Source: Motilimonas eburnea
GTDB lineage: Bacteria > Pseudomonadota > Gammaproteobacteria > Enterobacterales > CBDFNC01
Length of the DNA: 64,000 bases
Assembly: GCF_021295345.1 (NCBI RefSeq)
Contig: NZ_JAIMJB010000001.1
Location: 310,001 to 374,000 of the forward strand
Direction of reading: 5' to 3'
Positions within the stretch are counted from its first letter, which is position 1. The number at the start of each line of letters is the position of its first letter. The translations under genes and the position numbers were made by a program. Below the pieces are notes generated by a model that had not been told where the DNA came from, did not search any database, and was given only the letters and a program-made list of their open reading frames with translations. Below, piece after piece: positions 57,496-62,339 of the stretch.

Positions 57496-58383
57496 TTAAA
57501 CGGATGGCTCTGAGACCAGTTTGTTCTCCTTTTTATGCTGCTGGCTAACATACACACCAAGAAAAATCAGTGCAATGGCAGCGCCTTGCACTAAGGTAAT
57601 GGTCTCACCTAGCAGTAGTACGGCCAGCAACAAGGCAAACACCGGGGTTAAATTAGAGAATGCGGCGACCTTGAGGACACTGATCTTTGAAATCGAGTAG
57701 TTATACAAGCCATAAGCTCCCAAGGTAACAAAGGCGCCGAGGTAAAAAATACTGAGTAACCCCGCGGTATTGTGCTCCGTTGGAAAAGGCGTCAGGGCCG
57801 CTTGAGGAGCGAAAAATAAACTGCCGCTGATGCCTTGTAAAGCAATCAAGGTTAAAGGGGAGTAGCGAGTGCAGAGTTTTTTCACACATAAGGTGTAAAC
57901 GGCAGCAAAAAACAGCGCAATGATTTCTAAGGTGTTACCAAGCAGAGGATTAGGCGCGTGCTCGGACGTTTCTGAAACGAGGGACAGTAAAATACTGCCG
58001 CCAATACATAAGGTAAAACCCAGTGCGATGGTTGAGCTACAACGTTCCTTTAGCACAAACCAGGCAAGCAACGCGACAAAAATAGGCAGGCAAGAAACTA
58101 ACACACCGGCTTGTGCCGCCGAGGTATATTGCATGGCTTGACCTTCAAACCAAAAGTAGAGGCAGGGCTCCGCTGCGCTCATGAGCAGTAGCAGTTTCCA
58201 ATCGCCAGCTTGGTAGCTAAAGCGGCGTACCCAGCGCCACAAAAATAAGCAACAAATTAGGGTGGTGGACATGCGTAAAAACATAACCCACTCAGGAGGA
58301 TAGAAAAGGATGGCCTGTTTAAGGGCAATGTATGAACTGCCCCAGATAATCATGGCGATTGTCAGGCAAAGGCTTGCTGGCAT
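57496..58383 (-). CDS. EamA-family (DMT) transporter
   Basis: 295 aa, ten helices in two EamA repeats (GSSYIALKQAILFYPPEWVM; FSNLTPVFALLLAVLLLGET). A drug/metabolite exporter of unknown substrate. Weak ribosome site before ATG 58383. The gene stands between xthA and the channel gene, all minus strand. Confidence 0.87.
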   Translation of the reverse strand: MPASLCLTIAMIIWGSSYIALKQAILFYPPEWVMFLRMSTTLICCLFLWRWVRRFSYQAGDWKLLLLMSAAEPCLYFWFEGQAMQYTSAAQAGVLVSCLPIFVALLAWFVLKERCSSTIALGFTLCIGGSILLSLVSETSEHAPNPLLGNTLEIIALFFAAVYTLCVKKLCTRYSPLTLIALQGISGSLFFAPQAALTPFPTEHNTAGLLSIFYLGAFVTLGAYGLYNYSISKISVLKVAAFSNLTPVFALLLAVLLLGETITLVQGAAIALIFLGVYVSQQHKKENKLVSEPSV

Positions 58384-58485: not shown

Positions 58486-59487
58486 TTATCGTGTCATCTT
58501 CTTCACAAATACCACCACGAACAAGGCAAGGGTAAAACTGCCCGTAAAGGCTTCGATCGCGGCCATGCCACGCGACAAACCGACGGGGGTAAAGTCGCCA
58601 TAGCCCAAGGTGGTAAAGGTTACCACGCTGTAATATAGGCATTCTAAAAAGGCGATACCATTGGTGAGTAAATCGGCTTGATGATCAAAGGCGACAATGT
58701 CACCCGCAAAGCTGATGCCAAAGAAAAAATAAAAGATGGCGCTGGCGATGATCAGCAAGAGGGAGAAGAGCACCACGCGAATGGGCTCTTCACCGTAGCC
58801 ACAGAATAAATCCACGGTTTTGGAAAATAAGCGAGAGAAAGAAAATAACGGCATTTGATAGCGACGCATGGTCAGCTCTCGCTGCAAAAACGGGCCAGCT
58901 AAAGAAAATAAACCTTGCAGCTCACTGGCTTTGCGCAAATCCCGGTATATCTCTTCGGCTTGTTCATAGTTGTCTAACATGGCTTCCATGTCGTGGCGTT
59001 TTTTGGCTTGCTCTGCGCGTTTTTCTTGCAGTAACGTCTGACCTACCTTGATGTTATCTATTTTAGCTTTTAACAGCTTGACTCCAAGCAAGTTGCAGTC
59101 GCCAAGGTGTACGCAATGGAGATTGGCGCCGGTGAGGTCGGCCTTCATTAAGCTACCTTTGCACAAGGATGCATTAAACAGATGTGCGCCGCGTAGGTTA
59201 GCGCGATAAAAGTCACTGCCACTGAGATCATAGCCGGTTTTGGCTTTCGGCTTAACCAGATTAACCCCTTCAAGGTTGGCTCGTTGCAATGCTAGGCCAT
59301 GTAACATGCCGCCATCTTTGGCATATTGTTCCAGGCGTTTAGGTATGTCATCGCCGGATTTATCTGCGTCAGGATCGTGCCAAAAGCACAAACCGTGGGG
59401 GCCAGCTTTTTGCTCACACCTTGCTCCTAGGTGGTCATGATAGGTACAGCAAGTATGTTGGGCTGAGGAATTACTACTCGATGCCAT
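58486..59487 (-). CDS. Pentapeptide-repeat two-TM potassium channel
   Basis: 333 aa: an N-terminal Cys/His cluster (~13-37: CC..H.H....C.........C..H) that could bind zinc; a pentapeptide-repeat region (~60-155, including ANLEG, ANLRG, ADLTG, ANLHC units); a coiled or helical linker (~155-205); TM1 ~238-257; pore helix with selectivity filter TLGYGD (293-298); TM2 ~308-328. One pore per chain implies a tetramer, with the repeats as a cytosolic gating or assembly domain. AAGGAT precedes the ATG. Confidence 0.88.
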   Translation of the reverse strand: MASSSNSSAQHTCCTYHDHLGARCEQKAGPHGLCFWHDPDADKSGDDIPKRLEQYAKDGGMLHGLALQRANLEGVNLVKPKAKTGYDLSGSDFYRANLRGAHLFNASLCKGSLMKADLTGANLHCVHLGDCNLLGVKLLKAKIDNIKVGQTLLQEKRAEQAKKRHDMEAMLDNYEQAEEIYRDLRKASELQGLFSLAGPFLQRELTMRRYQMPLFSFSRLFSKTVDLFCGYGEEPIRVVLFSLLLIIASAIFYFFFGISFAGDIVAFDHQADLLTNGIAFLECLYYSVVTFTTLGYGDFTPVGLSRGMAAIEAFTGSFTLALFVVVFVKKMTR

Positions 59488-59706: not shown

Positions 59707-60669
59707 ATGGGCTTATTAGTAGACGGACAGTGGCATGACAAATGGTATGACACCGGTAAAACGAAAGGGGAGTTTAAGCGCGAACTAAGCCAGTTTCGCC
59801 ACCTTATAGAGCCCAACAGTTCTGAAGGCTTTACCCCTGATTCGGGTCGCTATCACCTTTATGTTTCGTTAGCTTGCCCTTGGGCTCATCGCACCCTAAT
59901 TTTTCGCCAGTTAAAAGGCTTAGCGCCCCATATATCCGTGTCTGTAGTTAGCCCGGATATGCTCTCCCATGGCTGGGAGTTTGACCCTGAGCAGGGGCTA
60001 GAAGACGATCTTTACCACAGCCAATACTTGTATCAAATATATCAAAAAGCCGATCCTCACTACACGGGTCGGGTGACGGTACCTATTTTATGGGACAAAC
60101 AAACTCAGCGCATCGTGAATAATGAATCGGCTGAAATTATCCGGATATTTAATAGCGCCTTCAATGAGTTAACTAATAATGAACGGGATTACTATCCACG
60201 CCCATTAAGGGATAAAATAGACGCTATTAATGCACCGATTTATGACAATGTGAACAACGGCGTTTACCGCTGCGGCTTCGCGACCACTCAAGCTGCCTAT
60301 GAGTCGGCATTTAAAGCACTGTTTGCAGAACTGGATAAATTAGAGCAGCACCTTTCTTGCCACCGGTATCTGTTGGGCGATCAGTTAACCGAAGCGGATT
60401 GGCGGTTATTTACAACCTTAGTGCGTTTTGATGCGGTTTACGTCGGGCATTTTAAATGCAATCAAGCGCGTATTGTTGACTACCCCCATCTTCAAGGTTA
60501 TCTCAAAGAGCTGTATCAAATGCCAGGGGTGGCTGAAACGGTGAATATGGATCACATCAAGCGTCATTACTATTTCAGTCACACCATGATAAATCCGACT
60601 CAAGTGGTGCCTGTTGGGCCGGCATTAGACTTGGATTCACCTCATCATCGTGAGCAAATTACAGCTTAA
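59707..60669 (+). CDS. yqjG: Glutathionyl-hydroquinone reductase (YqjG/Xi-class GST)
   Basis: 320 aa; SLACPWAHRT gives catalytic Cys57, and VPILWDKQTQRIVNNESAEI plus RLFTTLVRFDAVYVGHFKCN match YqjG/ECM4-type S-glutathionyl-hydroquinone reductases that reduce glutathionyl-quinols. GAGGG precedes the ATG by 8 nt. Converges on the REC-TPR gene 12 bp away. Confidence 0.93.
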   Translation: MGLLVDGQWHDKWYDTGKTKGEFKRELSQFRHLIEPNSSEGFTPDSGRYHLYVSLACPWAHRTLIFRQLKGLAPHISVSVVSPDMLSHGWEFDPEQGLEDDLYHSQYLYQIYQKADPHYTGRVTVPILWDKQTQRIVNNESAEIIRIFNSAFNELTNNERDYYPRPLRDKIDAINAPIYDNVNNGVYRCGFATTQAAYESAFKALFAELDKLEQHLSCHRYLLGDQLTEADWRLFTTLVRFDAVYVGHFKCNQARIVDYPHLQGYLKELYQMPGVAETVNMDHIKRHYYFSHTMINPTQVVPVGPALDLDSPHHREQITA

Positions 60670-60680
60670 GGGCCATTTGG

Positions 60681-62339
60681 CTATTTACGTTTACTGGTTT
60701 TGGCGACGGCTTGATGAAAGTCGTCTTTAAGGGATAGAAAGCGTTCTCGGTGGCTGGCTGAGAGCGGCATACCTTCAAGACTGCCGATGCAAGCCTCACA
60801 TTCGTCAGTGTACTTACGTGCTTGCTTGTTATCTAACAATAACAATTTGATGGTTGCTTGCAGCTTGTTGATGGCCGCCCCTGAGTTCATCGGCGCTTTT
60901 TTCAATGCGCGATCAAAGTAACCGCGGGCCGTTTCATAGTCTTCATGCTCGTAAGCTTGCTTACCCGCTTTATTTAAGTCATTAAAAGTGGTGAGCGCTT
61001 CTTTCATTTCACCTTGGGTCACGGCTGTTAAGGTTTTGCTCGTGACTTCATCGACGACATCACGTTTTGATAAGGTGTCGGCCATCAGCTCCGCGTATTC
61101 GTATTCACCTATCCCTACTAAAGCCAGCATGGACTCCGCCAAGATAGGGGTTGAAGCGTCATCGTGTTGCTCCAAGATAGGCTCAATGGCATGTAGTAAG
61201 GTGCGCTTTGCTTTGAGCATCTCGCCTTTGGCCTCATGAACGCGGGCATGACAGATGCTTTCATACATATCAAAATCGAAGTCTTCTTGGCGACCTTCTT
61301 CGTGACGCCCTTTAAACAGGGCGGAATGCACATCTTGCAAAATCCGGTTACGGCGATGGATATCATCGGTGTGCTTCGCCGCTTCTAAGATACTGCGAAT
61401 ATAATTAGCAAGGTGCTCGATGGCGGGATAAAACGAATTTCTCGAGAGCTGAAGGATCGCGCCAAAGCTATCTTTCGCCATCTCATACTCGTGGGCATCG
61501 GTGGCGAGACGGGCTAATAAGCGATGACGTTCGACACTGTGGTAAGCCAGTTCTGCAGCGCGTGTTACTATGCTCAAAGCTTTTTCGGCGTTGCCTTTTC
61601 CCTCATAGGCTCGGCCTAGCCATTCATAAGCATCAATCAATAATGAATTGGATTTAATGACTTTTTCTAACGTGGTGATCGCCTTATCATGCTCACCTTG
61701 CAGAAAATAGACTTTACCTAAGGTGATACAAGCCCAAGTAAACTCGCGTTGCTCAACGATTTTTTCCAGAAGTACCTGAGCTGAATCATAGCGTTCGGTA
61801 CGGATCAGCATTTCAGCCATTAGGTTGCGACAGTAGTTTTTATATCGCGTATCTTCTTTGAGTTTGCGTCGGCATAACGCCGCGACCTGATCATATTTTT
61901 GATCCCGCAATGCAGTGAATATGTCGATTAACTCACTTTTCTTGCGAAAACAGCGTTGGATACGCGTGTCGAGCTGGTGGCCAGAAAAAGGCTTCATTAA
62001 ATAATCATCGGGCTCAAGCTCAAGGGCGGTCAGCACCATAGACCGAGAGTTATCGCCGGTGACGATGATGAAAATAGACTCAACACTCACTAAATTATTG
62101 CGTTTCAAATACTCTAATAACTGCCGCCCATTTCTTCCCGTACCTAAATTGTAATCAACCAACAAAAGGTCAAATGGCACTTCGCGACACAGCTTCACCG
62201 CCGCCTCTGCGTTATCTGCAAAATAGACTGCAGTGCAACCTAAATTGGCCAACATGGCTTTGAGCATCACTTGAAAGGCGCGTTGATCATCAACGATCAA
62301 CACCTTCTTGCTGTGGTAACGGTAAAGTTCTTGTTCCAA
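60681..62339 (-). CDS. REC-TPR response regulator
   Basis: 552 aa: REC (~10-130) with Asp62 in LLLVDYNLG and Lys117 in LMKPF, then TPR repeats (~140-520), such as TLGKVYFLQGEHDKAITTLE and YEWLGRAYEGKGNAEKALSI. No DNA-binding or enzymatic output; likely signals by protein binding. The start is TTG 62339 with AGGAAA 6 nt upstream. No cognate kinase adjacent. Confidence 0.9.
   Translation of the reverse strand: MEQELYRYHSKKVLIVDDQRAFQVMLKAMLANLGCTAVYFADNAEAAVKLCREVPFDLLLVDYNLGTGRNGRQLLEYLKRNNLVSVESIFIIVTGDNSRSMVLTALELEPDDYLMKPFSGHQLDTRIQRCFRKKSELIDIFTALRDQKYDQVAALCRRKLKEDTRYKNYCRNLMAEMLIRTERYDSAQVLLEKIVEQREFTWACITLGKVYFLQGEHDKAITTLEKVIKSNSLLIDAYEWLGRAYEGKGNAEKALSIVTRAAELAYHSVERHRLLARLATDAHEYEMAKDSFGAILQLSRNSFYPAIEHLANYIRSILEAAKHTDDIHRRNRILQDVHSALFKGRHEEGRQEDFDFDMYESICHARVHEAKGEMLKAKRTLLHAIEPILEQHDDASTPILAESMLALVGIGEYEYAELMADTLSKRDVVDEVTSKTLTAVTQGEMKEALTTFNDLNKAGKQAYEHEDYETARGYFDRALKKAPMNSGAAINKLQATIKLLLLDNKQARKYTDECEACIGSLEGMPLSASHRERFLSLKDDFHQAVAKTSKRK

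Follow-up and report, generated by a model that had tools for sequence, protein, structure and literature searches.

In the window, the 64,000-nucleotide stretch analyzed here from the genome of Motilimonas eburnea, a marine bacterium, one gene encodes a protein of 333 amino acids in which a Cys/His cap, a pentapeptide-repeat solenoid, a helical linker, and a pore module with a canonical K+ filter follow one another, as read from the sequence and a structural model. No residues follow the pore, and the chain ends with the inner pore helix. The protein is fairly probably a K+ channel whose N-terminal half controls the gate from the cytosol; a ligand or a partner would act on this half, and a structural zinc cap would be located there. 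Among the prokaryotic K+ channels that have been studied, most are controlled by voltage or by RCK or cyclic-nucleotide domains at the C-terminus. With no residues after the inner pore helix, any cytosolic gating domain must be N-terminal. The architecture is already known from HalA; new are the stand-alone branch, the canonical K+ filter, and the zinc-like cap.

Domain order and structural model

The original prediction had read TLGYGD as the filter of a potassium channel and had placed a pentapeptide β-helix in the same protein. Both were recovered by Pfam, with 41 bits for Ion_trans_2 (PF07885; gathering cut-off 22.5) and 38.3 bits for Pentapeptide (PF00805; cut-off 20.2). The filter sequence TFTTLGYGD is in accordance with the K+ channel signature, TXXTXGYG[D], and is invariant in 81 of 81 aligned rows. 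An RCK/TrkA or cyclic-nucleotide-binding domain, the absence of which had also been predicted, was not among the five Pfam families matched up to E 1. The features of the gene and its neighbors are listed in Table 1.

Table 1. Features of the channel gene and its neighbors (positions of the window)
Feature	Residues	Positions	Strand	Basis or location
Channel gene (whole)		58486..59487	(-)	ORF from ATG to stop, 333 aa; orthologues
Cys/His cluster C14, C24, C34, H37 with invariant W36	14-37	59377..59448	(-)	Conservation; module predicted to fold alone
Pentapeptide-repeat beta-helix	~64-148	59044..59298	(-)	Pfam PF00805; model strands every five residues; fold matches to NP275, HetL, and others
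Helical linker and pre-TM1 helix	153-232	58792..59031	(-)	Alignments; model
Two-helix pore module	235-332	58492..58785	(-)	Pfam PF07885; NaK/KirBac fold matches
Selectivity filter TFTTLGYGD	290-298	58594..58620	(-)	Direct reading; invariant in 81/81 rows
EamA-type transporter		57496-58383	(-)	Flanks the channel gene on one side
Glutathione S-transferase-like gene		59707-60669	(+)	Pfam GST_N_2, GST_C_2; divergent, other side of the channel gene
Receiver+TPR gene		60681-62339	(-)	Pfam; beyond the GST-like gene

A single-chain model was built from 17 aligned sequences and reached a mean pLDDT of 86. A short helix is predicted at residues 48-57, and three linker helices as well as a pre-TM1 helix are predicted within residues 153-232. 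In the pore, the outer helix covers residues 235-256, the pore helix and the filter residues 273-298, and the inner helix residues 305-332. A promoter and terminator scan gave scores near or under the shuffle mean.

The individual parts of the model match known folds. The β-helix resembles that of NP275, HetL, MfpA, and Qnr (Z 11-16, up to 16.1); these four proteins are soluble and devoid of a pore. The pore module aligns with NaK and KirBac pores, which also carry a K+ filter, over 81-86 residues (Z approximately 11-12, rmsd 1.2-2.3), whereas three NaK rows of the VIA structure comparison that include the linker have an rmsd near 10.8. KirBac-type channels possess a C-terminal cytosolic domain; in the window protein, in contrast, the inner helix is the last element and the cytosolic part is N-terminal. 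Structures of NleL and SopA were found by Foldseek over 320-368 columns, with E-values (2.9e-4 to 4e-3) worse than that of HalA, and the NleL rows listed by VIA cover residues 17-201 of the model only.

Conservation of the Cys/His cluster and spread of the family

The pentapeptide, linker, and pore parts were present in 16 out of 16 aligned orthologues with identities of 48-78%, which is more than chance. Locus L024 was excluded from alignment A1 because of an in-frame stop. A larger set consisted of the window protein and 80 relatives, the best of 401, and is thereby biased toward rows with an N-terminus; the genera among these 80 included Motilimonas, Shewanella, Aeromonas, Pseudoalteromonas, Colwellia, Enterovibrio, Grimontia, and Psychromonas. 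In this set, 70 of the 333 columns were conserved in at least 80 of the 81 rows, including C14, C24, C34, W36, H37, and the entire TFTTLGYGD motif. The linker residues E178/E179, R182, G192, R208, S222, and G230-G232 were invariant in both alignments, and K329 and R333 at the end of the inner helix were found in 81 of 81 rows. C229 at the elbow of the linker (FCGYGE) may have a redox or structural role.

The Cys/His cluster that had been proposed to precede the solenoid shows the conservation expected of a metal site. Its spacing in the window protein is C-x9-C-x9-C-x2-H, and C14, C24, C34, W36, and H37 are identical in all 81 rows, whereas the adjacent C13 is variable (8 of 81 rows); H17, H19, and H31 vary as well. 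The cluster was present in 12 of the 16 aligned orthologues, and the four rows without it (4 of 17 aligned) retain both the filter and the linker. The persistence of filter and linker where the cluster was lost makes it unlikely that the cap is the gate itself. Among the 79 rows from the order, a sample selected independently of the N-terminal score, 66 displayed C-x(6-14)-C-x(6-14)-C-x2-H, 12 were without the full set, and one was truncated in this section. The 12 rows comprise all six rows of family f8, the five assessable rows of family f16, and one of nine rows of family f7; the class-level rows L029 and L030 are also devoid of the cluster. As read by eye, all cluster-less rows retain the tryptophan, and in L173 C-F-W-H is retained while the first two cysteines are gone. 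Because of the retained tryptophan and this partial site, the metal-like site seems to have decayed stepwise.

For a tree, 77 of the 79 order rows, which were long enough, were combined with the two class-level rows and one haloarchaeal row and thinned to at most seven rows per family; the thinning removed L028, the sole f7 row without the cluster. On the resulting 58-row tree, the presence of the cluster required two changes compared to 11.1 in shuffles, of which the starred branches force only one, and the haloarchaeal branch was too long for placement.

The N-terminal module alone is predicted to fold with a pLDDT of 92.7. Residues 1-61 had no Pfam match up to E 10, and no PDB profile match was obtained for the module. 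Foldseek gave no match for the model of the module at E<=0.001, and a VIA comparison of it with three chains revealed no known relative; small modules are hard to match, and these missing matches are no proof of a new fold. Both the conservation and the predicted fold would be expected of a putative small structural zinc site. Taken with the losses, the sequences fit a structural metal cap that is helpful yet dispensable.

The family was found in eight of 30 nearby genomes including that of M. eburnea, in 14 of 398 genomes of the phylum, and, at E<=1e-20, in 79 of the 394 genomes from the order, where it is distributed over ten families. At the same threshold, 78 of the 79 positive order genomes contain a single match; the exception, G617, carries one broken gene in two pieces. 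Presence is patchy within some families, for example f12 and f21, which include genomes without the gene. In the phylum search, a wide margin in E-value separated the 14 members (at most 1.3e-141) from the match that followed them (L221, 3.7e-18). The channel proteins form a distinct family. Several orthologues appear to be broken: in-frame stops were found in G427 and G342 and fragments in G465 and G617 (loci L164, L185, L209, and L210).

A search of plasmids resulted in 14 matching records, two of which, an Aeromonas record of 4.9 Mb and a Halococcus plasmid, reached a query coverage of at least 80%. The Aeromonas record (L134, PLSDB record NZ_AP026896.1, 4.94 Mb) is labeled a plasmid and resembles an Aeromonas caviae chromosome. 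Of 95 matching phage records, none reached a query coverage of at least 80%; the ten phage matches listed all lie on the pentapeptide part, and seven of them extend into the linker.

Comparison with HalA and other relatives

The best PDB match of the full-length model was HalA (9nyi; Foldseek E 8.8e-7, 331 columns), a structure titled as HalA with oligodeoxyadenylate. In VIA, 9nyi aligned with 267 residues of the model between positions 29 and 333 (Z 14.4, rmsd 7.1) and was the sole one of the 50 rows listed that spans both solenoid and pore. The Foldseek superposition had a TM-score of 0.24 and an rmsd of 13.4, and structures of single parts scored about as high in VIA (pentapeptide Z 16.1, pore Z 12.1). 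Thus, a shared domain order is claimed here and not a shared detailed arrangement. No other solved full-length structure with a pentapeptide solenoid in front of a pore was found here. According to two articles, HalA is the channel of the Hailong anti-phage system and is kept closed by DNA oligomers made by HalB (PMC13275509, PMC12657230). HalB is a nucleotidyltransferase.

The proposal of a new gating logic has to be narrowed in this light, because the domain order has a precedent in HalA; the stand-alone branch, the K+ filter, and the zinc-like cap stand as new. The sequence similarity to HalA is weak: the NCBIfam model NF051894 (HalA) reached 21 bits with a cut-off of 250 (residues 151-333, E 1.6e-4). 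An hhalign comparison of alignment A1 with one HalA sequence gave a probability of 0.7% (E 0.083, 37 columns), and the linker+pore HMM scored 10.1 bits against HalA. When the HalA family was searched in six frames, 47 of 398 genomes were positive at E<=1e-5, mostly in the pentapeptide part, with none above the cut-off and with two control genomes also positive; the window gene was not among these matches, while other pentapeptide genes of its genome were. One HalB sequence, used as a query against the window and 98 loci, had no match at E<=1. In the M. eburnea genome, the best E-value was 0.076 with the query sequence and 0.6 with NF051895, neither of them convincing, and PADLOC (2023 library) gave no match.

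A divergent Hailong pair was detected in the same order (L111:1447-3371). HalA (230.6 of 250 bits) and the adjoining HalB (162.8 of 190 bits) are just below both NCBIfam cut-offs. HalA and the window protein have the N-terminal pentapeptide solenoid, the helical linker, and the C-terminal two-helix pore in common. They differ in the filter, which is GYGD in the window protein and GYT in HalA of L111, and in the Cys/His cap, which is absent from the latter. HalB is adjacent in the L111 pair, whereas none was found for the window protein.

Haloarchaeal relatives are encoded on plasmids of Halococcus, Halalkalicoccus, and Halorarius. These proteins, known from annotation only (as pentapeptide/potassium channel family proteins), consist of a pentapeptide part, a linker, and a pore and likewise end at the inner helix. 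All three (P0001-P0003) were recognized by the linker+pore HMM with 77-91 bits, contain pentapeptide repeats according to Pfam, and share 26-30% identity with the window protein over the matched part. Their filters are SYGD (P0001), GYGD (P0002), and GLGD (P0003). The solenoid of P0002 is longer than that of the window protein, and P0003 has no clear cluster. The N-terminal HMM gave only 13.9 and 5.6 bits for the Cys/His-like stretches of P0001 and P0002, so that a shared Cys/His-like N-terminus is a weak lead. P0002 scored 40.1 bits with the HalA model. In other Pseudomonadota, L221 and L113 have pentapeptide repeats joined to a pore, and the cluster was not seen in them. L113:949-1848 encodes a 300-amino-acid protein with pentapeptide-like repeats and a pore with the filter SLGFGD, another branch of the class.

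The order pentapeptide, linker, and pore looks like that of a broad class. HalA would be its characterized member, and the window protein a branch distinguished by the K+ filter and the zinc-like cap. It is doubtful, although conceivable, that the window protein defines an ancient group of K+ channels with N-terminal gating, shared by Gammaproteobacteria and haloarchaea, whose zinc-capped pentapeptide solenoid senses a general cytosolic polyanion or DNA-like ligand, and that HalA is a branch recruited for phage defense, which gained a ligand-making enzyme and lost the K+ filter.

Gene neighborhood and proposed gating

The neighborhood was compared in 81 loci, that is, the window and 80 further loci, several of which have short flanks. 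A receiver+TPR gene was detected by tblastn (E<=1e-10) near the channel gene in 20 of them. In 16 loci, it is located directly upstream and is co-directional (13 out of 13 Aeromonas loci, Aliagarivorans, and two Pseudoalteromonas loci); in three Motilimonas loci including the window, it is located upstream with the GST-like gene in between, and in one Pseudoalteromonas locus downstream. The receiver+TPR gene and the channel gene may represent an old operon. The GST-like gene is directly upstream and divergent in five of the 81 loci: three from Motilimonas including the window, one from Aestuariibacter, and one from a metagenome-assembled genome (MAG) of Alteromonadaceae. A crude ORF-based count, in which the overlap filter dropped the channel ORF in five of 81 loci, gave 17 of 81 for the commonest neighbor cluster. 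No neighbor recurs in more than 20 of the 81 loci, and this speaks against an obligate partner. Probably, the gene functions with no partner gene devoted to it; some lineages may have one.

In the preferred model, the protein would be the subunit of a tetrameric, K+-selective channel with two transmembrane helices per subunit. The four N-terminal domains would form a cytosolic assembly, and a ligand or a partner bound to them might shift the conserved linker (residues 153-232). This shift would pull on the outer helix via the GYGE-P elbow and thereby open or close the inner-helix bundle. Such gating by a bound ligand would be comparable to the control of HalA, in which the domains follow one another in this order as well. 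The Cys/His cluster would most likely bind one Zn2+, cap the front end of the solenoid, and stabilize the sensor.

The invariance of the cluster in the 81 rows and the occurrence of C229 at the linker elbow in 80 of them are also compatible with a redox or metal sensor, in which Zn2+ binds to or leaves the cluster, or the cluster is oxidized, and K+ efflux follows under electrophile or oxidative stress. Glutathione-gated Kef systems operate by an analogous logic, and the divergent GST-like gene in five loci points in the same direction. However, 12 of the 79 order genomes do without the cluster, and no GST-like gene was found at E<=1e-10 in the remaining 76 loci, of which some have short flanks; we consider this explanation unlikely. 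Still less credit is given to an orphan defense channel, which would be shut by a DNA or RNA oligomer bound to the solenoid and opened by the loss of this oligomer during phage infection. Oligodeoxyadenylate-bound HalA as the top full-length fold match, the match of the HalA model to residues 151-333, and the score of the haloarchaeal P0002 with this model are in favor of such a HalA-like effector, but HalB was not detected in the window, the 98 loci, or convincingly in the genome, PADLOC gave no match, and the filter is GYGD instead of GYT. In addition, a single copy in ten families, though patchy, is unlike a mobile defense gene and points to a role in physiology rather than in defense. A third mechanism, the binding of the neighboring response-regulator/TPR protein to the N-terminal domain in a two-component-type control, would be in line with the 20 loci described above. 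It appears highly improbable, since 61 of the 81 loci, including all those of Shewanella, Colwellia, and Enterovibrio, had no receiver+TPR gene at E<=1e-10, and a conserved order of ordinary genes would give the same picture.

Gating by a ligand or partner in the cytosol, together with a structural zinc cap, is thus ranked ahead of redox or metal sensing, followed by a HalA-like nucleic acid ligand and the receiver protein. Such a channel perhaps plays a role in the K+ or turgor homeostasis of the mostly marine or aquatic Gammaproteobacteria that possess it. Among the titles listed in a literature search whose coverage was without most subscription journals, none dealt with pentapeptide-gated K+ channels. 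The family offers a test of the HalA domain order without HalB, and the comparison of natural homologues with and without the Cys/His cap can reveal the role of the cap.
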